Positions 19,217 through 28,522 of a stretch of DNA of 64,000 bases are shown in pieces (position 1 is the stretch's first letter; each line of letters starts with the position of its first letter). The stretch comes from Spongiivirga citrea (GTDB lineage Bacteria > Bacteroidota > Bacteroidia > Flavobacteriales > Flavobacteriaceae): positions 372,001 to 436,000 of the forward strand of contig NZ_JAABOQ010000005.1 in the NCBI RefSeq assembly GCF_010671565.1, read 5' to 3'. Under the pieces are notes generated by a model. That model worked only from the letters and a program-made list of their open reading frames with translations. It searched no databases and was not told where the DNA came from. Made by a program: the position numbers and the translations under genes.

Positions 19217-20008
19217 TTATAACTTTAAGTTGGCTGGTATATCACAAACGGGAATTGGTATCATTTTATGTTTGTTGGCCCTGTTAAATTTCTGGTAAAT
19301 CTCAAAAACTTCTTTTTTTCTGCCATCAAAATCAGAAACACTTTTTCCTTCATCTTCCATATTCATCGCCCACTCTAACTCTGGGTATGAAGCGCCAATT
19401 TGGTCTTCATCGCTTCGTGTATCACCCCATAAACCATCGGACGGCGCCGCTACCATTATACTATCGGGAACCTGTAGCGTTTTCCCAATGGCATATACTT
19501 CACTTTTCATCAAATCTGCTATCGGACTTAAATCAACACCGCCATCACCATATTTGGTATAAAAACCTACCCCAAAATCTTCCACCTTATTTCCAGTTCC
19601 AGCGACTAATTTATTTAATAATCCTGCATGGTAATACAAGGTGCTCATGCGTAATCGCGCTCGTGTATTGGCCCAAGCAAGTTCGTCACGATCGGCATCA
19701 CCCTTTATAGAAACTTGCTGGGTCATTTGATCAAAAACAGGAGTTAGATCAACCCGTGTGTCTAATACATTTTCGAATCTATCTTTTAGTTGAGCAATAT
19801 GCTCTTGCGCACGACTAACATGACTAGCTGCTTGATGAATAGGCATTTCAATACATAGCGTCGGTAAACCAGTTTTAGCACACAGGGTTGAGGTAACTGC
19901 AGAATCAATTCCTCCAGAAACACCCACAACAAAACCATTTACTCGGGCTTTTTCGGTATAGTCTTTTAACCAATTAACAATATGATCGATTACTTTTTCA
20001 GTTTGCAT
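19217..20008 (-). CDS. nadE: NAD synthetase
   Basis: A 263-residue NadE without a glutaminase domain. It adenylates nicotinic acid adenine dinucleotide and amidates it, probably with ammonia, to give NAD. The PP-loop motif GVSGGIDSAV (about 29-38), the substrate loop GTGNKVEDFGVGFYTKYGDGG and LPPS-like late segments are clear. I chose the ATG at 20008 (MQTEKVIDHIVNWL); the in-frame extension upstream runs through the promoter palindrome and looks non-coding. It is divergent from gldB. Confidence 0.95.
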   Translation of the reverse strand: MQTEKVIDHIVNWLKDYTEKARVNGFVVGVSGGIDSAVTSTLCAKTGLPTLCIEMPIHQAASHVSRAQEHIAQLKDRFENVLDTRVDLTPVFDQMTQQVSIKGDADRDELAWANTRARLRMSTLYYHAGLLNKLVAGTGNKVEDFGVGFYTKYGDGGVDLSPIADLMKSEVYAIGKTLQVPDSIMVAAPSDGLWGDTRSDEDQIGASYPELEWAMNMEDEGKSVSDFDGRKKEVFEIYQKFNRANKHKMIPIPVCDIPANLKL

Positions 20009-20037
20009 AGTGGGTGTCCAATTATAATGTAAAAATG

Positions 20038-20056
20038 TATCTTTGTCACAAAGATA
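20038..20056. promoter_or_regulatory. Palindromic divergent promoter core between nadE and gldB
   Basis: The sequence TATCTTTGTCACAAAGATA is a perfect palindrome with a 3-bp centre. Each arm is an exact match to the Bacteroidota -7 consensus TAnnTTTG, one pointing to gldB (+) and one to nadE (-). Implied transcription starts would lie on opposite sides of the palindrome. Clear TTTG -33 boxes at the expected distance are not visible for either direction. A second inverted pair, TTTTGTG at 20065 and CACAAAA at 20084, follows on the gldB side and might be an operator. Confidence 0.55.
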
Positions 20057-20109
20057 AGCTTTCGTTTTGTGATGTAAAATATACACAAAACTGACGTTTT
20101 AAATAACCT

Positions 20110-21084
20110 ATGATTAGAAAATTGCTATGTTTTTCCTTTCTCATAATCAGCCTTTTGAGCTGCAATGAAGAAAAGAATTGTGAGGAAGTTGCTCCAGAGA
20201 TTGCAGAAATATCGTTGACTTTGACTATTGACAGATTCGATCAAGAATTTGACAAGACTAACCCGAGTGACTTTTCATCTTTAAAGATGAAATATCCATA
20301 TATGTTTCAGCAACAACTTCCGGATAGCGTTTGGATTGCTCGGATGAATGATACTTTGCGTCAAGAAATAATGGCAGAGGTAAACCTAGTGTTTCCCGAT
20401 TTTGAAAAAGAGTCAGTTGAACTAAGGAATCTTTTTAAACACATTAAGTATTATTTTCCCAAAGCAAAAATCCCTAAGGTAGTTACCGCAATTTCGGATG
20501 TTGATAGAAATAACAAGGTCTTTTATTCTGATACCTTATTGGCAATAGCGGTCGACACCTATTTAGGAAAAGAAAATAAACTTTATCAAGGTATTTCTAA
20601 GTTTGAGCGCAATAATTTAAATAAAACACAGCTAATACCGGATGTTATTAATGAGTTTTCGAAGCCATATATTAGTTCGCCCAAAAATCGAACATTCATC
20701 GCGCAAATGTTATATTTTGGTAAACGACTTTATCTAAAAGATAAACTAATACCATGTGCTACAGATGAAGTGAAAATAGGATATGATACAAGTCAAATTG
20801 AATGGTGCGAGGTAAATGAAGAGGAAGTTTGGCGTTATTTTATTGATAATGAAATGTTATTTAGTACAGATAAGGAATTGGTAAGGCGTTTTTTACTAAA
20901 TGCACCTTTTTCAAAATTTTTTAAAGAAATAGACCAAGAATCACCTGGCCGAATCGGGCAATGGCTAGGTTGGCAAATTGTACGAGCGTACATGAATACT
21001 AACGAGGTTTCGTTACAGGAGTTAATGATCACTCCTGCTGATGAAATCTTTAAAAACTCAAATTACAAACCGAAAAAAAAGTAA
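20110..21084 (+). CDS. gldB: Gliding motility lipoprotein GldB
   Basis: A 324-residue lipoprotein with signal and lipobox ending in LLSC (Cys18). Features fitting GldB include ISLTLTIDRFDQEFD near the N-terminus, the central segment VVTAISDVDRNNKVFY, and the C-terminal GRIGQWLGWQIVRAYM. GldB is one of the envelope proteins needed for flavobacterial gliding and T9SS function. The pairing with gldC immediately downstream (1-bp overlap) and divergent nadE is a familiar flavobacterial arrangement and strengthens the call. Confidence 0.93.
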   Translation: MIRKLLCFSFLIISLLSCNEEKNCEEVAPEIAEISLTLTIDRFDQEFDKTNPSDFSSLKMKYPYMFQQQLPDSVWIARMNDTLRQEIMAEVNLVFPDFEKESVELRNLFKHIKYYFPKAKIPKVVTAISDVDRNNKVFYSDTLLAIAVDTYLGKENKLYQGISKFERNNLNKTQLIPDVINEFSKPYISSPKNRTFIAQMLYFGKRLYLKDKLIPCATDEVKIGYDTSQIEWCEVNEEEVWRYFIDNEMLFSTDKELVRRFLLNAPFSKFFKEIDQESPGRIGQWLGWQIVRAYMNTNEVSLQELMITPADEIFKNSNYKPKKK

Positions 21085-21416
21085 TGGCTAAAGTAAAAGA
21101 AAGTGAAATTAGAATTAAGGTTGGCTTAGATGAAAACCGAGTGCCCGAAAAGCTATTTTGGTCCGCTGAAGATGGTGGGGTAAACCAAGAAGAAGCAAAA
21201 GCAATGATGCTTTCTGTCTGGGACGCTAAAGAAAAAGAGAGCTTACGAATTGATTTGTGGACGAAAGATATGCCAGTTGATGATATGAAAATGTTTTTTT
21301 ATCAAACAATGGTATCTATGACAGATACTTTTCATCGTGCTACTCAAGATGAGAAAATGACTGAAACAATGAAAGATTTTTGCGAGTACTTCGCAGAGAA
21401 ATTAGAATTGAAATAA
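21084..21416 (+). CDS. gldC: Gliding motility protein GldC
   Basis: A 110-residue soluble protein without signal peptide. It contains the characteristic stretches VGLDENRVPEKLFWSAEDGG and MPVDDMKMFFYQT. The ATG overlaps the gldB stop by one base, so the two are translationally coupled. GldC improves gliding in Flavobacterium johnsoniae; its biochemical activity is unknown. A strong hairpin terminator follows 34 bp later. Confidence 0.93.
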   Translation: MAKVKESEIRIKVGLDENRVPEKLFWSAEDGGVNQEEAKAMMLSVWDAKEKESLRIDLWTKDMPVDDMKMFFYQTMVSMTDTFHRATQDEKMTETMKDFCEYFAEKLELK

Positions 21417-21450
21417 TTTAAAAGAATAAATATACCTTATTACATATATT

Positions 21451-21480
21451 AAAAGTGTTAGCTGGCTAACACTTTTTTTT
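21451..21480 (+). terminator. Rho-independent terminator of gldBC
   Basis: A stem of AAAGTGTTAG and CTAACACTTT with a 4-base loop is followed by a run of T residues. It lies between gldC and the large secreted-protein gene, so the two units are transcriptionally separate. Confidence 0.85.
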
Positions 21481-21538
21481 ATGCTCTGGGTTTAGTTTTA
21501 CCAATCAATTTTTTGATTATTAACTAAATTCCATTAAA

Positions 21539-24500
21539 ATGAAAACATCTCTACGATTTGCGAATGCATCTTCGTATTACTGGCGTGGCATTAGCATTAA
21601 TTTGCTGAGATTGGCGCTAATGCTAATGGCTGTATTTACATATGCCATTGAACCTAACACCAATAACCCCGGGGCAGCGGTTGATGGTGGAACTATTTCA
21701 GGAGGACCATTTACTTTTTGTGTTGGTGATGGCCAAGCTGATAATGTATCGGGGATTACTCTTGAAGGCGAAAGCGGAAGTCTTTCGCAATGGGTAGTAA
21801 CCGATGAAACAGGAAAAATTCTAGGCTTGCCTCCTACACCAGAAGCTGTCGACTTTGACGGCGCAGGTGCGGGAGTTTGTTTGATCTGGCACTTGAGTTT
21901 TGAAGATGATTGTATCGGACTTGAAGTAGGTAATAATGCACTTACTGACCTTTTTGGTACGTTTGACTTATCTAATAACATTCGAGTATATCGCAACCAG
22001 CCTGATGCAGGCTTATTGAGCGGCGGGCCATTTACCTTTACGGTTGATGGTACACCTGATTTTGTTTCAGGAATATCGCTTAGTAGAGATCGTAGTGGGA
22101 CAAATGCTACGTTTGTAATTACTGATGACAAAGGAAATATTTTAGGTTTACCTCCTACAATTAGTGACGTTGAAGGAGTTGATTTTGACGGAGCGGGAGC
22201 AGGCGTTTGCTTGATTTGGTATCTTAGATATGAAGACGGTTTAACAGGCTTAACTCCAGGTGAAAACACACACGATTTTGCGGGCTGTTATGATCTTTCA
22301 AATCCCATTTCAGTAACTAGAAACTTGCCACCTGTAGTAGGCGGTACATTAAGTGGTGGGCCATTTACATTTTGTGTAGGTGATGGCGAGGCTGATAATG
22401 TGTCAGGAGTTGCTGTAAGTGGCAATTCAGGACAAAACAGTCAATATGTAGTAACTGATGAACAAGGAAATATCCTTGGTTTACCACCAACTCCAGAAGC
22501 AGTAAACTTCGATGGTGCTGGTCCAGGTGTATGCTTAATCTGGCATTTGAGTTATAATGGCGACATCACAGGATTGGAAGCAGGACAAAATGCGAATAAC
22601 CTTCAAGGAGATTTCGAATTATCAAATAGCATACGAGTATATAGACAAGAACCACTAGCAGGAACCTTAATAGGAGGCCCTTATACATTTACCGTAGACG
22701 GCACACCAGATATGGCATCCGGACTAGATATTGAAGGAGAACGTCGTGGAGACAACTTCAGCTATATCATTACCGATAGTGATGGTAAGATTCTTGGTTT
22801 GCCTCCTACTTTAGAGGCTGCTAGAAATGTAGATTTTGACGGAGCGGGAGCAGGTGTTTGTCTAATCTGGTACATCCGTTACTATGGAGATATCATTGGA
22901 CTGGAAGCAGATGCAAATGCAAACGATCTTAAAGGTTGTTTTGATTTATCAAATGCGATTACAGTAACAAGAAACTTACCTCCTGTCGTTGGGGGAACAT
23001 TAGATGGAGGTCCATTTACATTCTGCGCAGGTGATGGCGAAGATGATTTTGTTTCTGATATTACTTTAAGTGGAAACTCTGGCCAAACAAGCCAGTGGGT
23101 AGTGACAGATGAGCAGGGTAAAATCTTAGGTTTACCACCAATGCCAAGTGCAGTTAATTTCGATGGAGCAGGTCCAGGGGTATGTTTAATCTGGCATTTG
23201 AGTTATAACGGCGATATCACCGGGTTGGAAGCAGGTCAAAACGCAAACGATCTTCAAGGAGATTTTGAATTGTCGAATAACATACGAGTATATAGACAAG
23301 AACCACTAGCAGGAACCTTAACAGGCGGGCCATATTGGTTTATGGTTGGTGATGGAGTTGCCGATATGGCTACAGGATTAGATATTACTGGAGAACGTCG
23401 AGGCGATGGTTTCAGCTATATTGTTACGGATGCCGATGGAAAAATCCTAGGCTTGCCGCCGACACTGGAGGCTGCAAGAAATGTTGACTTCGATGGAGCT
23501 GGCGGCGGAAACTGTTTGATCTGGTATGTACGTTACTATGGAGAGATTGCTGGATTAGAAGAAGGCGCCAATGCAGGCGACTTACAAGGTTGTTTCGATC
23601 TTTCTAATTCTATTTTAATTGAAAGAACTCCAACGGTGGCAAATGGCGGAACTATTGATGGTGGTCCATTTACATTCTGTGCAGGGGACGGTCAGGCTGA
23701 TAATGTATCAGGTATTACTTTATCAGGAAATACAGGGGTGAATAGCCAATGGATTGTGACTGATGAACAAGGAAATATTCTTGGTTTACCACCAATGCCA
23801 AGTGCAGTTGATTTTGATGGTGCAGGTCCGGGTGTTTGTTTGATTTGGCACCTAAGTTACAATGGTAATATTAGTGGACTTGAAGCTGGTGCTAATGCAA
23901 ACGATTTACAAGGCGATGACTTTAGCTTATCGAATAATATAAGAGTGTATCGACAAGAACCAGAAGCAGGAACCTTAACAGGTGGGCCATATTGGTTCAC
24001 GGTAGGCGATGGTATTGCTGATATGGCTTCTGGATTAGATATTACCGGAGAACGAAGAGGTGATGGTTTCAGTTATATTGTTACTGATGCGGATAACAAT
24101 ATTCTTGGATTACCACCAACTTTAGAGGCTGCAAGGAATGTTGATTTTGATGGAGCTGGAGGCGGAAACTGTTTGATCTGGTATGTACGCTATTACGGAG
24201 ATATTACTGGCTTAGAAGAAGGAGCTAATGCGGGCGACTTACAAGGTTGTTTCGATCTTTCTAATTCTATTTTAATTGAAAGAACACCAGTTGTAGCTAA
24301 TGGAGGTACTTTAACAGGTGGTCCGTATACCTTTTGTGTAGGCGATGGTCAGGCTGATAATGTATCGGGTGTTACTCTATCTGGTAATGCAGGAGTCAAT
24401 AGTCAATATGTGGTAACTGATGAGCAAGGAAAAATCCTTGGTTTACCACCAACCCCGGAGGCAGTGAACTTTGACGGTGCAGGCCCAGGAGTTTGTTTAA

Positions 24501-25198
24501 TCTGGCACTTGAGTTACAATGGCGATATCAGTGGACTTGAAGTTGGACAAAATGCCAATGATCTTCAAGGAGATTTTGATCTTTCAAATAACATTCGAGT
24601 GTATAGACAAGAGCCACTGGCTGGGACTTTAACTGGTGGGCCGTATACTTTTACTGTTGATGGTACAGCTGATTTCGCTTCAGGACTAGATATTACTGGT
24701 GAGCGTCGTGGAGAGAGCTTTAGCTATATCGTTACTGATTTAGACGGAAAAATACTAGGTCTGCCACCAACACTGGATGATGCGCGTGGGGTGAATTTTG
24801 ATGCAGCAGGCCCTGGTACATGCTTAATCTGGTATATTCGTTACTATGGCGAGATTAGTGGATTAGCGGTAGATGCTAATGCAAATGATCTACAAGGTTG
24901 TTTTGATTTATCAAATTCTATTACCGTAGAACGCGTTGAAGCTACAGGGCGTATGAGTGCGAAAATGTTTCCAATCCCAGCATCAGCAACATTAAACGTG
25001 AAGTTCGACAGACAATTATCAAGTAATGCTAGTGTGCGTTTGTATGACCTTACTGGTAATGTTGTTATTAGCAAAGAAGTGCCAAAAGGCGATTCAGCAA
25101 ATCTTAATGTGCGTAATATTCCTTCAGGAATTTATATAATTACTATAGACGAGCCGAAAAGCGGAATGGCGATTAAAAAGAAGGTTGTTATTAATTAA
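21539..25198 (+). CDS. Ten-module secreted protein with T9SS C-terminal sorting domain
   Basis: A 1219-residue secreted protein. A long signal region (residues 1-36) with hydrophobic core LLRLALMLMAVFTYA precedes ten tandem modules of 107-111 residues. Each has a GGP(F/Y) opening, an ILGLPP centre, a DFDGAG motif, CLIW and DLSN. The last ~75 residues form a type A sorting domain (MFPIPASATLNVKF, LYDLTGN, IPSGIYII, KKKVVIN), so the protein should cross the outer membrane through the T9SS and be surface-bound or released. Modules alternate in two types (A,B)x5 with complementary cysteine positions. I do not know a function for the module; adhesion or a surface layer is a guess. It lies beside gldBC but in its own transcription unit. 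Confidence 0.93.
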   Translation: MKTSLRFANASSYYWRGISINLLRLALMLMAVFTYAIEPNTNNPGAAVDGGTISGGPFTFCVGDGQADNVSGITLEGESGSLSQWVVTDETGKILGLPPTPEAVDFDGAGAGVCLIWHLSFEDDCIGLEVGNNALTDLFGTFDLSNNIRVYRNQPDAGLLSGGPFTFTVDGTPDFVSGISLSRDRSGTNATFVITDDKGNILGLPPTISDVEGVDFDGAGAGVCLIWYLRYEDGLTGLTPGENTHDFAGCYDLSNPISVTRNLPPVVGGTLSGGPFTFCVGDGEADNVSGVAVSGNSGQNSQYVVTDEQGNILGLPPTPEAVNFDGAGPGVCLIWHLSYNGDITGLEAGQNANNLQGDFELSNSIRVYRQEPLAGTLIGGPYTFTVDGTPDMASGLDIEGERRGDNFSYIITDSDGKILGLPPTLEAARNVDFDGAGAGVCLIWYIRYYGDIIGLEADANANDLKGCFDLSNAITVTRNLPPVVGGTLDGGPFTFCAGDGEDDFVSDITLSGNSGQTSQWVVTDEQGKILGLPPMPSAVNFDGAGPGVCLIWHLSYNGDITGLEAGQNANDLQGDFELSNNIRVYRQEPLAGTLTGGPYWFMVGDGVADMATGLDITGERRGDGFSYIVTDADGKILGLPPTLEAARNVDFDGAGGGNCLIWYVRYYGEIAGLEEGANAGDLQGCFDLSNSILIERTPTVANGGTIDGGPFTFCAGDGQADNVSGITLSGNTGVNSQWIVTDEQGNILGLPPMPSAVDFDGAGPGVCLIWHLSYNGNISGLEAGANANDLQGDDFSLSNNIRVYRQEPEAGTLTGGPYWFTVGDGIADMASGLDITGERRGDGFSYIVTDADNNILGLPPTLEAARNVDFDGAGGGNCLIWYVRYYGDITGLEEGANAGDLQGCFDLSNSILIERTPVVANGGTLTGGPYTFCVGDGQADNVSGVTLSGNAGVNSQYVVTDEQGKILGLPPTPEAVNFDGAGPGVCLIWHLSYNGDISGLEVGQNANDLQGDFDLSNNIRVYRQEPLAGTLTGGPYTFTVDGTADFASGLDITGERRGESFSYIVTDLDGKILGLPPTLDDARGVNFDAAGPGTCLIWYIRYYGEISGLAVDANANDLQGCFDLSNSITVERVEATGRMSAKMFPIPASATLNVKFDRQLSSNASVRLYDLTGNVVISKEVPKGDSANLNVRNIPSGIYIITIDEPKSGMAIKKKVVIN
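21686..24940 (+). repeat. Array of ten ~325-bp coding repeats (five A-B pairs)
   Basis: Modules begin at 21686, 22010, 22340, 22661, 22991, 23312, 23645, 23969, 24302 and 24623. Odd modules (type A) are 107-108 codons; even modules (type B) are 110-111 codons. DNA identity is very high over some stretches: 22630-22670 and 23281-23321 are identical for 41 bases. This indicates expansion by duplication of an A-B pair of about 650 bp, or gene conversion. Confidence 0.9.
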
Positions 25199-25221
25199 AT
25201 AATATCCGTTGTTAGGAAAGG

Positions 25222-25250
25222 AAAGCCGCTAAAAGCGGCTTTTTCTTTTT
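25222..25250 (+). terminator. Terminator of the ten-module protein gene
   Basis: Stem AAAGCCGCT / AGCGGCTTT with a 3-base loop is followed by a T-rich stretch on the plus strand. It abuts the stop codon of the convergent methyltransferase gene. On the minus strand the T run is poor, so it acts mainly for the plus strand. Confidence 0.8.
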
Positions 25251-25896
25251 ATGACTTTTTATAAATAAAGAAATCCGCTTTAGAGGTGTTATCAGGATCT
25301 GTTGGGTCAAATGGGAATTTGTTCTTAACAGTTTCAACTAATTTCCACTCTGGTTGGTGCTGATCGATCCAGTTGCTAAACTTTCGGTCACGCTCGTGAA
25401 ACGTCTGTTTTTTGTCAAAATTACTTGAGTAGATGATCACATATGCTGAACTATGATTAAAAAGATCACTCATATGTGCATTAAAAACTGCGTCTTCAAT
25501 TAAATGATAAATAACATCAAGCGATAAAGTGAGGTCTACCTTTTTCGATCTAAATTCTGTATCAGTATAGGTGAAGAATTCTTTAGTTGAATCTTCTGTA
25601 AATAGCTCTTTGCATAATGAGATTGCGGTAGTTGAAACATCAATGCCTAAATATGACGGATATTTGGCAAGGGTAAGCTGATTGCCATCTCCGCATCCAA
25701 ATTCCATGACAGATTGTATGTTGTTTTTAGCTAAAAAATCATTTAATACTTCAGCTTTGAAAGTGGCAAGACGATTATATGATCCAGGGCCAGAATTCCC
25801 TTTTTTAGAATAACGTTTTTCCCAATAATCTTTAGAGCCAGGGAAAAGCTGGTTTTGAAAGAGCTTAAAAATGACTTTTTTGATACGACCAATCAT
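25249..25896 (-). CDS. Class I SAM-dependent methyltransferase
   Basis: A 215-residue soluble protein with a Rossmann-type methyltransferase fold. Motif I is MEFGCGDGNQL (about 64-74), followed by YLGIDVSTTAI (motif II) and LTLSLDVIYHLIED (motif IV/post-I), which is common in small-molecule methyltransferases. The N-terminal GSKDYWEKRYSKKGNSG resembles the start of several uncharacterised bacterial members. Substrate is unknown. It is convergent with the secreted protein gene and divergent from the CxxC protein gene. Confidence 0.85.
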   Translation of the reverse strand: MIGRIKKVIFKLFQNQLFPGSKDYWEKRYSKKGNSGPGSYNRLATFKAEVLNDFLAKNNIQSVMEFGCGDGNQLTLAKYPSYLGIDVSTTAISLCKELFTEDSTKEFFTYTDTEFRSKKVDLTLSLDVIYHLIEDAVFNAHMSDLFNHSSAYVIIYSSNFDKKQTFHERDRKFSNWIDQHQPEWKLVETVKNKFPFDPTDPDNTSKADFFIYKKS

Positions 25897-25981
25897 TATG
25901 AATGAAAAATTTTACGAGGCGCAAGATAATTATAATTGGTACAAACTTGTAAGTTGATGCTAATTGATCGACTTTTAGTTT

Positions 25982-26350
25982 ATGGAAACGAAGGTGGAGA
26001 AAATTATATTGGTATATAATGCGAAATCAGGCTTTATACACGGGCTTTTTGATGCTGGTCATAAATTACTAAGCCCGCAAACATATCAGTGCTCGTTATG
26101 CAGCTTGACGCATGGTGCCTTTAAAGAGCGAGGGGTATGGAGGCAGTTTCGAGAAAGTTCGTCAATTGAATTTGAGTTTCTACATATCGACGAGTTTGAA
26201 GAAGAGTATGAGCAGCTTGAGGATAAATTTTCTTATCCCATCGTAGCAGCAGAATCGGAAGGATATTTTTCTGTTTTATTAAATGATGAGCAGTTAAGAT
26301 CGCTAAAAAATGTAGATGAGTTAATAAACGCTCTTAAGAAACGGATTTAA
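25982..26350 (+). CDS. Conserved hypothetical protein with CSLC motif
   Basis: A 122-residue soluble protein. It begins with a beta-strand-like segment (KIILVYNAKSGF), carries a C-x-x-C pair in QCSLCSLTHGAF, and ends in a helical region. The spaced Cys pair followed by T-H suggests a redox or metal site. Similar short proteins in Bacteroidota are sometimes labelled GTPase, but no P-loop is present. The 3' end overlaps the convergent engB by 4 bp. Function is unknown. Confidence 0.75.
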   Translation: METKVEKIILVYNAKSGFIHGLFDAGHKLLSPQTYQCSLCSLTHGAFKERGVWRQFRESSSIEFEFLHIDEFEEEYEQLEDKFSYPIVAAESEGYFSVLLNDEQLRSLKNVDELINALKKRI

Positions 26351-26958
26351 GCGTTTTTGTTAATCTCCATATTAATTTCTCCAATATAACTAAGTAGCTC
26401 ATCTTTACCAATCCCCGAAGATGAGGAGGTAATAAAGTAATTTGGCATTTCTTCCCAGGTATCTTCAAGCATTTTAGCTTTATAGTCCGCTACATTTCGC
26501 TCAATAGCTTTTGGTTTTAATTTGTCAGCCTTAGTAAAAACAATGGAAAATGGTATTTGATGTTCGCCCATCCACTGCATGAACTCCATATCAACTTTTT
26601 GCGGTTCATGACGGATGTCAATTAATACAAATGCCGAAACTAGCTGTGCACGTTGTTCAAAATATTCAGTAATAAATTTTTGGAATACTTTTTTAGCACT
26701 TTTAGATACACGTGCATACCCATAGCCAGGTAAATCAACTAAATACCAATTATTGTTAATGATAAAATGATTAATAAGCTGAGTTTTTCCAGGTCTTCCT
26801 GAAGTCTTTGCCAGATTCTTTCGGTTAGTCAGCATATTTATCAATGAGGACTTACCTACATTAGAGCGGCCTATAAAAGCATATTCGGGCAGCTTATTTG
26901 TAGGACATTTACTAACCTCACTATTGCTTATCACAAAATTGGCTGAAGTGATCTTCAT
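26347..26958 (-). CDS. engB: Ribosome biogenesis GTPase YihA/YsxC (EngB)
   Basis: A 203-residue GTPase with the expected G motifs: G1 GRSNVGKS (30-37), G3 DLPGYGYAR, and G4 TKADK. EngB assists late assembly of the large ribosomal subunit. Length and motif spacing are typical. It lies 62 bp upstream of the alpha/beta hydrolase gene on the same strand and may share its transcript. Confidence 0.95.
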   Translation of the reverse strand: MKITSANFVISNSEVSKCPTNKLPEYAFIGRSNVGKSSLINMLTNRKNLAKTSGRPGKTQLINHFIINNNWYLVDLPGYGYARVSKSAKKVFQKFITEYFEQRAQLVSAFVLIDIRHEPQKVDMEFMQWMGEHQIPFSIVFTKADKLKPKAIERNVADYKAKMLEDTWEEMPNYFITSSSSGIGKDELLSYIGEINMEINKNA

Positions 26959-27019
26959 TTTTTCTCGAAAATTAATAACGCCCTACTTCTGGTCAAAGAG
27001 ACGTAGCGATCTAAGTGTT

Positions 27020-27784
27020 TTAAAAACCTCTCTTGGTTAGCCAAGCATTTAAATGCTCGTTAAAAGTATCTGGATCCTCCATCATTGGTGCATGACCACA
27101 TTCTTCAATCCAGTACAAATCGGCATCTGGTAATAAGTTTTCAAACTCTACCGCGACTTCTGGTGGCGTTACAGTGTCATTTTTTCCCCAAATAATACAT
27201 GTTGGAGTATGCATATCTGGTAGATCTTTCGACATATTATGACGAATGGCACTTTTAGAAATAGCTAGGGTTTTAACCAGCTTATTTCTGTCGTTAATAG
27301 TCGCAAAGACTTCATCAACGATATCTTTTGTAGCAACCTCAGGATTGTAAAAAACATCCTGCGCTTTTTTCTTCACAAATTCATAATCTCCACGTCTTGG
27401 GTAACTATCGCCCATTGCACTTTCGTAAAGACCAGAGCTACCTGTAATTACCAGGCCTTTTACCTTTTCAGGAAAAAGCTTCGTATGCAAAAGTCCAATG
27501 TGACCTCCAAGAGAGTTTCCTAATAAAATAACTTGATCAAAACCTTTATGCTCGATAAATTCTTCAAGATAAGTAGCAAAACTTTTTACGGTCGTTTTTA
27601 TAAGCGACATATCGTAAATAGGAAGTTCTGGAATTACAATTTTATAGCCTTTCGGAGCGAAGAAATTGGTGACACCGTCAAAGTTGCTTAGCCCGCCCAT
27701 CAAACCATGTAGGATGATAATTGGTGTTCCTTCACCTAGTTCTAAATAACTGAATTTTCCTTCCTTCTTTATGTGGTTTTTCAT
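27020..27784 (-). CDS. Alpha/beta hydrolase
   Basis: A 254-residue alpha/beta hydrolase. The oxyanion region HGLMGGLSN, the nucleophile elbow GNSLGGH, an acid in WGKNDTVTPP and the terminal His in ECGHAPMMEDP form a complete Ser-Asp-His triad. No signal peptide. I chose the ATG at 27784 (MKNHIKKEGKFSYLELG); a TTG five codons upstream is also open. The substrate cannot be told; homologues next to dcw clusters in Flavobacteriia are generally annotated only as hydrolases. Confidence 0.88.
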   Translation of the reverse strand: MKNHIKKEGKFSYLELGEGTPIIILHGLMGGLSNFDGVTNFFAPKGYKIVIPELPIYDMSLIKTTVKSFATYLEEFIEHKGFDQVILLGNSLGGHIGLLHTKLFPEKVKGLVITGSSGLYESAMGDSYPRRGDYEFVKKKAQDVFYNPEVATKDIVDEVFATINDRNKLVKTLAISKSAIRHNMSKDLPDMHTPTCIIWGKNDTVTPPEVAVEFENLLPDADLYWIEECGHAPMMEDPDTFNEHLNAWLTKRGF

Positions 27785-27809
27785 TCGTGGGATTCGCAAA
27801 TATCAACCG

Positions 27810-27817
27810 CAAATATA
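27810..27817 (-). promoter_or_regulatory. Putative -7 promoter element of the hydrolase-engB unit
   Basis: Minus-strand TATATTTG matches TAnnTTTG 26 bp upstream of the chosen start at 27784. No clear -33 box is seen. Confidence 0.35.
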
Positions 27818-27981
27818 GGCATTTAGGAATTATCAATCTTGTTTAAAATTAAAGCCTTAAAACTCAGGTTTTATAGGTTTTTTCTTGTGTTTTTTTTGCT
27901 TGAAAATTAAAGAATAAAGTTTTGTAGGTGGTCGAAAGAAATGGAGTTTTTTGGGATCGAGTAGTAGAACTTATCAACAAA

Positions 27982-28007
27982 GTGGTATAAAGTGGTAAAA
28001 TGTGGTA
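27982..28007 (+). promoter_or_regulatory. MraZ-box operator: three GTGGTA repeats
   Basis: Three direct copies of GTGGTA begin at 27982, 27992 and 28002, an exact 10-bp period. This matches the layout of known MraZ operators, in which short G-rich repeats spaced one helical turn apart are bound by the MraZ ring. They lie 51-76 bp before the mraZ start and just upstream of a TATATTTG -7 element (28018-28025), so MraZ probably autoregulates the cluster here. Confidence 0.8.
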
Positions 28008-28017
28008 TATTTTTCGA

Positions 28018-28025
28018 TATATTTG
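28018..28025 (+). promoter_or_regulatory. Putative -7 element of the dcw cluster promoter
   Basis: TATATTTG is an exact TAnnTTTG match 32 bp before mraZ. The expected -33 position falls within the GTGGTA repeats and has no TTTG box, which fits an operator-overlapped promoter. Confidence 0.5.
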
Positions 28026-28057
28026 GTTTTTAAACAAATGCCCCAAGTCATTTTGTG

Positions 28058-28522
28058 ATGAACTCATTGATAGGAACATACGAGTGTAAGGTTGATGCGA
28101 AAGGTCGCGTCATGTTGCCAGTTGCCATGAAAAAGCAATTGAGTCCGATCATTGAAAAAGGTTTTGTGGTAAAACGAGCTGTGTTCCAGCCGTGTTTAGA
28201 GTTGTATCCAATTGATGAATGGGAGAAGATGATGCAAAAAGTTGGAAAGTTAAACAGGTTTAAGCCAAAGAATAATGACTTCATCCGTCGTTTTTCTGCA
28301 GGGGTTAAGCCAGTAGAACTTGATAGTACGGGAAGACTTCAGATTCCGAAAGACCTTGTCGCTTTTGCAGGAATTAGCAAAAACTTAGTCCTGTCATCAG
28401 CGGTAAATATCATTGAGATATGGGATAAGGATCGCTATGAAAAAGCTATTGACGATGCTGCTCTGGATTTTGCGGAGTTGGCAGAAGAGGTAATGGGAAA
28501 TGATGAAGAAGATGTATCATAA
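28058..28522 (+). CDS. mraZ: Transcriptional regulator MraZ
   Basis: A 154-residue protein with two AbrB-like SpoVT domains. Each has its hallmark: DAKGRVMLPVAMK in the first and DSTGRLQIPKDLVAFAGI in the second. MraZ binds repeats upstream of its own gene and represses the dcw cluster; three candidate boxes lie just upstream. I chose the ATG at 28058 (MNSLIGTYECKVD); a GTG directly before it is also in frame. Its 3' end overlaps rsmH by 11-23 bp. Confidence 0.95.
   Translation: MNSLIGTYECKVDAKGRVMLPVAMKKQLSPIIEKGFVVKRAVFQPCLELYPIDEWEKMMQKVGKLNRFKPKNNDFIRRFSAGVKPVELDSTGRLQIPKDLVAFAGISKNLVLSSAVNIIEIWDKDRYEKAIDDAALDFAELAEEVMGNDEEDVS

Follow-up and report, generated by a model that had tools for sequence, protein, structure and literature searches.

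Paired cysteines at module junctions suggest disulfides between neighbouring modules in a secreted ten-module protein of Spongiivirga citrea

A 64-kb stretch of the Spongiivirga citrea genome (the window, meaning that whole stretch) was found to encode a secreted array protein of 1219 amino acids (aa) in the open reading frame 21539–25198 (+). The protein consisted of a hydrophobic N-terminus, ten modules of 106–112 aa each and a type A sorting domain of the type IX secretion system (T9SS). Modules of two types, A and B, followed each other five times and differed in the positions of their cysteines, termed C1, C2 and C3. Cysteine counts at the junctions of this protein and its relatives indicated that C1 of module n is very likely paired with C3 of module n+1. 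Viewed as a whole, the protein is probably a T9SS-exported rod of ten modules, with disulfides between and not within the modules and with these staples setting its stiffness. A stalk-like function of the rod is about an even prospect.

Cysteine pattern and parity at module junctions

In the window protein, C1 was located in the motif FTFC or YTFC, which opened all five A modules and none of the five B modules. The B modules carried threonine (four times) or methionine (once) instead. C2, in the motif CLIW, was present in all ten modules. C3, in GCFDLSN (GCYDLSN in module 2), was present in all five B modules and absent from all A modules. These positions agreed with a first-pass annotation made from the sequence alone, which had described C1 and C2 (CLIWH) for the A modules and Thr or Met, C2 and C3 for the B modules. 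It had also placed Asp at the C3 position of every A module. The absence of cysteine held for all five, but Asp was not universal, as A1 had Thr (GTFDLSN) and A7 had GDDFSLSN with a one-residue insertion. The alternation of CLIWH and CLIWY, likewise annotated, was in step with A and B along the window protein, but this did not extend to the relatives. Arrays whose cysteines alternated strictly as ABAB could have only H (L035) or only Y (L009), and for this reason H/Y was dropped as part of the rule described below. The protein held 21 cysteines in total, counting an extra Cys125 (21911–21913) in A1.

To score junction parity, the cysteines at C1(n), in the linker and at C3(n+1) were added up. 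The rule was first read from eleven loci, which stayed within a first set of 108 loci and 580 aligned modules (C1 in 346, C2 in 559 and C3 in 357). The cysteine count was even at 397 of 398 junctions in this set and at 206 of 209 junctions in loci fetched afterwards. Before counting, rows were removed for a missing column (33 in the first set, 47 in the later set), as duplicates (24 and 138) or for gaps of more than 30 residues (13 and 8). The later set shared species with the first set, as its 138 exact duplicates show, and exact duplicates alone were removed. The profile was built from the first set, and the three cysteine-rich columns of the later alignment were taken as C1, C2 and C3. Pooling, in which runs nested within other runs were removed as well, left 588 junctions, of which 584 were even. 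This number was not approached in any of three series of 2000 shuffles each. Shuffling modules within arrays gave a mean of 469 and a maximum of 499 even junctions, shuffling modules together with their linkers gave 491 and 517, and global shuffling gave 343 and 380. Four exceptions aside, only the states (0,0,0), (1,0,1), (0,1,1), (1,1,0) and (1,2,1) occurred for C1, linker and C3. The annotated A/B periodicity over ten modules thus held and exceeded chance as judged by the parity rule and its controls, and a profile search with the module showed that the pattern was not random among relatives either.

The rule was not confined to alternating arrays. Modules were typed as A (C1 only), B (C3 only), F (both) or 0 (neither), and arrays consisting only of F, only of 0 or of mixed types also obeyed parity. 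Flavobacteriaceae arrays were mainly ABAB and longer repeats of this order, AB, 0AB, 00AB or all-0. Aquimarina arrays included BAB and BABAB, and two arrays ended in ABF. Saprospiraceae arrays were mostly F. Among the transitions counted, an A module was followed by B 101 times, by F 10 times and by a module with a missing C3 column 12 times. No complete A or 0 module came after an A.

The first-pass annotation had left a choice between distinct disulfides within the modules and a bond from the first cysteine of A to the last cysteine of B. Bonds within modules, C1–C2 in A and C3–C2 in B, would suit the window protein, where nine of ten modules held exactly two cysteines including C2 (A1 held three). 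This arrangement is nevertheless most unlikely. C2 persisted in type 0 modules, and type F, with all three cysteines, was the commonest type (205 of 565 modules tallied). Bonds within modules also predict nothing about the neighbouring module, yet the neighbour covaried. C1 and C3 of the same module were in the same state at 212 of the 398 first-set junctions and at 178 of 209 in the later loci.

Independent changes and couplings

A tree of 602 junctions was calculated with the cysteine columns and the linker excluded, and independent pairs were compared on supported branches. C1(n) changed 31 times on this tree. All 16 independent pairs showed C1(n) changing in the same direction as the summed parity of the linker and C3(n+1) (p 3e-5). 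For C3(n+1) alone, 9.9 of 16 pairs had the same direction, none the opposite and 6.1 no difference. An odd number of linker cysteines followed C1 plus C3 in 12 of 14 pairs, with none opposite and two without difference. The control with C3(n) of the same module gave 1.1 same, 6.6 opposite and 8.3 without difference out of 16, and C1(n) against C1(n+1) gave 2.2, 6.3 and 7.5, respectively.

These independent changes, coupled in 16 of 16 cases, speak against the notion that the alternation is a bond-free by-product of duplicating a two-module unit. The window protein itself offers some basis for that notion, with A modules closer to A1 (72–76% alike) than B modules were (54–61%). Tandem Repeats Finder reported no repeats over the array region, but a unit of two modules, at about 650 bases, exceeds its longest period of 500, and this result is therefore silent on pairwise duplication. 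Against mere duplication, linker cysteines appeared where one partner was missing, in the states (0,1,1) and (1,1,0), and all-F, all-0 and mixed arrays kept parity as well. We regard duplication without a bond as scarcely credible.

From another side, the pairing of C1(n) with C3(n+1) was supported by mean-field couplings calculated over 613 junctions, with an effective number of 346. This pair ranked at the top of 10,404 inter-module couplings with a z of 17.9. Apart from two cysteine pairs, the top 25 inter-module couplings consisted of 21 same-column pairs together with C12–G28 and C12–L70. Within modules, C1–C2 ranked 4787th and C2–C3 4841st of 4851 couplings, which gives no support to bonds within modules. 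Since the C2 column is almost invariant and would show weak couplings in any case, these ranks alone are not decisive. Taken together, parity, tree and couplings strongly supported the second of the two annotated bonds, in the form of C1 of an A module with C3 of the following B module, and gave no support to the first.

Binding of a metal by the paired cysteines, or bonds between chains, would also account for conserved pairs, and the odd cysteines in A1 of the window protein and at the N-termini of L036 and L041 could join chains. However, a linker cysteine in the same chain can take the place of a missing partner, which points to the neighbour within the chain, and the other couplings among the top 25 did not resemble those of metal ligands. 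Metal binding or interchain bonding is very unlikely.

Chain ends and linkers

Parity also extended to the ends of the arrays. Last modules with fewer than 135 residues after C3 were even in 82 of 88 cases: 58 had neither C1 nor a downstream cysteine, 23 had one of each and one had three downstream cysteines. First modules were counted in arrays starting no more than 75 residues from the frame start, where five of the 62 rows were pieces of the window's gene. By script, 52 of 62 were even, and 61 of 62 after by-eye assignment of the lipobox (seven rows) and of two post-signal cysteines. Arrays that followed a signal sequence started with A or 0 if the mature end had no cysteine and with F if it had one.

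The position of linker cysteines depended on which partner was absent. If C3(n+1) was missing, the single linker cysteine was found 14, 17 or 18 residues past the C3 column of module n (23 of 23), and the spacing from it to the C1 column of n+1 varied from 15 to 27 residues. If C1(n) was missing, it preceded the C1 column of n+1 by 15–16 residues (31 of 31). Two linker cysteines occurred at 61 junctions, and in 53 of them one was located 14–19 residues past the C3 column of module n, followed by the other 15–16 residues ahead of the C1 column of module n+1. Segments without linker cysteines also differed between the two kinds of junction. From A to B, the predicted stapled junction, 79 of the 82 distinct segments comprised 26 residues, and 61 contained R..P. 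From B to A, the predicted unstapled junction, the segments comprised 26–30 residues, and R..P was present in 5 of 55. This contrast fits stiff pairs connected by freer joints.

Observations against pairing between modules

Several observations weigh against a complete account by C1(n)–C3(n+1) staples. Four of 607 junctions were odd, one each in L092 and L207 and two in L159. The odd junction of L092 had an extra cysteine in the last strand. Module 3 of L207 lacked C3 and had a cysteine at column 73 instead, which is possibly a substitute partner. In L159, a lone linker cysteine directly after the last strand was followed by modules (605, 821) without C2. A role of C2 as partner at L159 is not claimed, as L082 and L104 also had modules without C2 and yet obeyed parity. 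At the chain ends, six of the 88 last modules were odd (L091, L143, L052, L177, L158 and L125), and those of L052 and L177 appeared to be cut short. The sole exception among first modules was L041, whose N-terminal cysteine had no partner. The same applied to L036, which was excluded by the length cut-off. Where C1(n) was missing, the linker cysteine was near-fixed also relative to module n (17 residues, 28 of 31). With near-fixed positions on both sides, position alone does not cleanly separate the two classes of linker cysteine. The same-module C1–C3 coupling ranked 43rd of 4851. In the window protein, Cys125 was without a partner. No covarying partner was found for C2, and the ten C2 residues of the window protein would be unpaired. 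Of 1084 aligned modules, 995 had C2, and it was retained even where C1 and C3 had been lost, which is unusual in an exported protein. Our guess is that C2 is a buried free thiol. Matches to DsbB (PF02600) or VKOR (PF07884) were not found in the genome, which had one DSBA-family match (PF01323).

The mirror count of C3(n), linker and C1(n+1) was even at 356 of the 398 first-set junctions and at 176 of 209 in the later loci, and C3(n)–C1(n+1) was the second inter-module coupling (z 13.7). Both results favour a bond from B to the next A, between cysteines about 27 residues apart in the sequence. Alternation by itself could yield both the evenness of the mirror count and this coupling. In ABAB arrays, a bond of this kind would give no partner to C1 of the opening A module or to C3 of the closing B module. 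It cannot serve 0AB, 00AB or two-module AB arrays, and it breaks at 75 of 607 junctions compared with four for C1(n)–C3(n+1). As the sole arrangement it has next to no probability. A contribution of C3(n)–C1(n+1) beside the C1(n)–C3(n+1) pairing is conceivable.

In several flavobacterial arrays, odd cysteines in or right before module 1 were seen, at Cys125 of the window protein, in module 1 of L050 and at the N-termini of L036 and L041. Such a partnerless cysteine could link two chains at the tip. Modules 1 and 3 of L038, L039 and L044 were type A with an additional cysteine at column 28.

Modules, predicted staples and mechanism

All features of the protein are on the forward strand. Applied to the window protein, the parity rule predicts five staples. 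Staple 1 (21719–22288) would connect Cys61 (21719–21721), the C1 of module 1 (type A, 21686–22006), with Cys250 (22286–22288), the C3 of module 2 (type B, 22007–22339). Staple 2 (22373–22939) is predicted between Cys279 of module 3 (A, 22340–22657) and Cys467 of module 4 (B, 22658–22990), and staple 3 (23024–23593) between Cys496 of module 5 (A, 22991–23308) and Cys685 of module 6 (B, 23309–23644). Staple 4 (23678–24250) would join Cys714 of module 7 (A, 23645–23965), the module with the insertion, to Cys904 of module 8 (B, 23966–24301). Staple 5 (24335–24901) would join Cys933 of module 9 (A, 24302–24619) to Cys1121 of module 10 (B, 24620–24949).

We infer the oxidation of the paired cysteines to disulfides from the pairing in the sequences and the expected extracellular site. 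In the proposed mechanism, the chain would be exported via the T9SS and displayed as an extracellular rod of beta-sandwich modules. C1 at the C-terminal pole of module n would bond C3 at the N-terminal pole of module n+1, so that five disulfides lock A1–B2, A3–B4, A5–B6, A7–B8 and A9–B10. The four B–A junctions would stay unbonded, resulting in five stiff pairs joined by four movable joints. In relatives, staples could be present at no, some, alternate or all junctions, with a linker cysteine standing in where needed. Number and position of the staples would set the stiffness of the rod, and at the cell surface the rod may function in adhesion or reach.

Fold and domain identity

AlphaFold2 predicted an all-beta fold for one module, with a predicted local distance difference test score (pLDDT) of 96.4 and a predicted template modelling score (pTM) of 0.87, and for four modules (pLDDT 94.0, pTM 0.64). 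In the four-module model, C1 was the final residue of strand 9–12 and C3 the third residue of strand 89–94 (198–203 in B4). The couplings 64–101 and 67–100 placed strand 63–77 against 98–103, 10–101 placed the first beside the last strands, and 77–89 was also coupled. From these couplings and the predicted secondary structure, the C-terminal pole of the module would carry C1 and the N-terminal pole C3, the layout that a staple between neighbours needs.

In Foldseek searches, the single-module model had no match at E ≤ 0.001, and the grappling hook protein GhpA appeared at E 1.3–1.8. Against the viral structure library, no match reached E ≤ 0.001. The best VIA match of the single module was a glycosidase domain (Z 7.2, root-mean-square deviation (rmsd) 2.7, 81 aligned). 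Matches to immunoglobulin (Ig), T-cell receptor and FGFR structures had Z values of 5.8–6.5. The resemblance of the predicted module to known beta-sandwiches was weak, and an Ig-like fold is at most weakly indicated. Sequence searches did not name it. In the Pfam and NCBIfam scan of the window protein, the sorting domain alone passed its cut-off. Three relatives in the library scans showed the sorting domain, weak lamin-tail matches and repeat-driven matches without a passing stretch. In L068 and L085, Kelch_3, Lactococcin, TruB_N, DUF4141 and Big_15 exceeded the whole-protein cut-off, with no passing stretch. The module profile A2 found no sequence match to PDB chains at E ≤ 10, and phmmer with the window protein against the PDB gave weak matches at most. 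Among the matches listed in open-licence literature on interdomain disulfides, Ig-like repeats, adhesins, stalks and the T9SS, titles and abstracts did not describe the module or the rule, which is a weak absence. The motif strings returned one unrelated match, a soil-erosion paper.

Relatives of the array

In a sample of 299 genomes from the same family, 49 had a match to the ten-module profile, the window's own genome among them. A broader profile of 22 sequences matched 8 of 395 genomes across a phylum sample. Within single orders, it matched 72 of 298 genomes for that of G359 and 53 of 199 for that of G341. A scan of named genomes, of which the best 80 of 293 places were kept, resulted in 77 loci. 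The loci among these best 80 of 293 places belonged mostly to Flavobacteriaceae and Saprospiraceae. The module-profile search found no second copy of the array protein in the genome of S. citrea.

As judged by eye, many relatives had a lipobox and a stop a few residues past the last of two to six modules. Among them, L003, L005, L006, L008, L009, L016, L024 and others were in many cases all-0 or had C1 and C3 in the last two modules only (0AB, 00AB). By their sequences, these relatives look like lipid-anchored versions of the array with few or no staples. L113 and L114 differed from the other lipobox loci in that a single module was found, with 268 residues beyond it. An open frame of 8235 aa with a module match on G746:C280 (L153, L197) is possibly a giant array protein. 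At L032–L034, L037–L045 and many other loci of the named-genome scan, the contig seemed to end close to or within the array. Draft assemblies may break at arrays, so that arrays are under-counted.

Genomic context and secretion

The first 49 residues of the window protein held a hydrophobic segment that, by eye, looks like a signal peptide. The C-terminal sorting domain (24965–25195, +) was matched by PF18962 at residues 1143–1217 (E 2.5e-11, 44.1 bits versus a cut-off of 27) and by TIGR04183 (E 4.6e-9, 36.1 bits versus a cut-off of 23). SprA (TIGR04189) was encoded in the genome with 2790 bits versus a cut-off of 200. These matches agree with the annotated T9SS-type secretion.

Upstream of the array gene were gldB, encoding a gliding motility lipoprotein (20110–21084, +; TIGR03514, E 1e-127), and gldC, encoding a gliding motility protein (21084–21416, +; TIGR03515, E 4.3e-43). 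The Aquimarina loci L059, L061, L083 and L095 had relatives of nadE, gldB and gldC on one side of the array and relatives of engB and mraZ on the other side. At L019, gldC and part of gldB adjoined the array. Many loci were too short to show flanking genes in this comparison. The position of the array beside gldB–gldC in the window (19217–28522) and at L059, L061, L083, L095 and L019 suggests a link to gliding. In L059 and L083, the two of these loci that were inspected, a cysteine stood directly ahead of the first B module. An open frame of 230 aa antisense to the array (21577–22269, −) is probably a shadow of the repeats.

Comparison with known systems

The arrays may form a large Bacteroidota family of secreted and lipid-anchored beta-sandwich proteins that is unnamed in Pfam and NCBIfam. 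Its cysteines would constitute a code for each junction, namely no staple, a direct C1–C3 staple, a staple with a linker cysteine or two staples, and lineages would tune stiffness by moving staples. We consider this wider proposal evenly balanced. The series would start with 000 lipoproteins, which lack staples, continue with 0AB and 00AB arrays, stapled only at their final two modules, and with ABAB arrays, stapled at alternate junctions, and end with FFFF arrays, stapled throughout. The window protein would be the alternating, articulated version. If true, interdomain staples at none, half or all of the junctions represent a natural series for relating junction stiffness to reach and adhesion. 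The parity rule would predict disulfide connectivity from sequence for many of these unnamed proteins, and the staple pattern could guide the design of protein rods that are either stiff or hinged.

Structurally, the first Foldseek match of the four-module model was 9flp, the grappling hook neck of grappling hook protein A (GhpA) from Aureispira sp. CCB-QB1, with E 3.3e-8, prob 1.00, TMq 0.29 and rmsd 12.2. GhpA (PDB 9flp, 9flw, 9flu and others) consists of tandem beta-sandwich domains, as predicted for the window array, and is a T9SS substrate. It filled six rows of the VIA table with Z 6.8–8.7, of which 9flu had Z 8.7 and rmsd 10.5 over 316 aligned residues. The match was not distinctive, as human CELSR1 cadherin repeats reached E 6.0e-8, Robo1 Z 8.8 and NCAM2 Z 8.7. 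The search of profile A2 against PDB chains described above gave no sequence match to GhpA at E ≤ 10.

Long bacterial surface rods need to be stiff for reach and supple for survival, and the answers described include calcium in linkers and bonds within domains. A stable disulfide linking proteins of gliding and the T9SS is described in the same phylum for SprF–GldK of Flavobacterium johnsoniae (PMC12635249). This bond differs from the staples proposed for the window protein in connecting two different proteins in the periplasm, with no repeat rod. In the giant adhesin of Mobiluncus mulieris, a rod of Ig-like repeats is cross-linked covalently, in part by disulfides. Unlike those proposed for the window array, the cross-links described there are within domains, and the domain pair solved has a flexible linker (PMC10619420). 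Rods stiffened at their junctions are already known from RTX adhesins, where calcium in the linkers of tandem beta-sandwich repeats stiffens the junctions so that the rod of the extender region extends (PMC7493085). RTX extenders are thus stiffened at their junctions by calcium, whereas the window array would be stiffened by the proposed covalent bonds between neighbouring modules.

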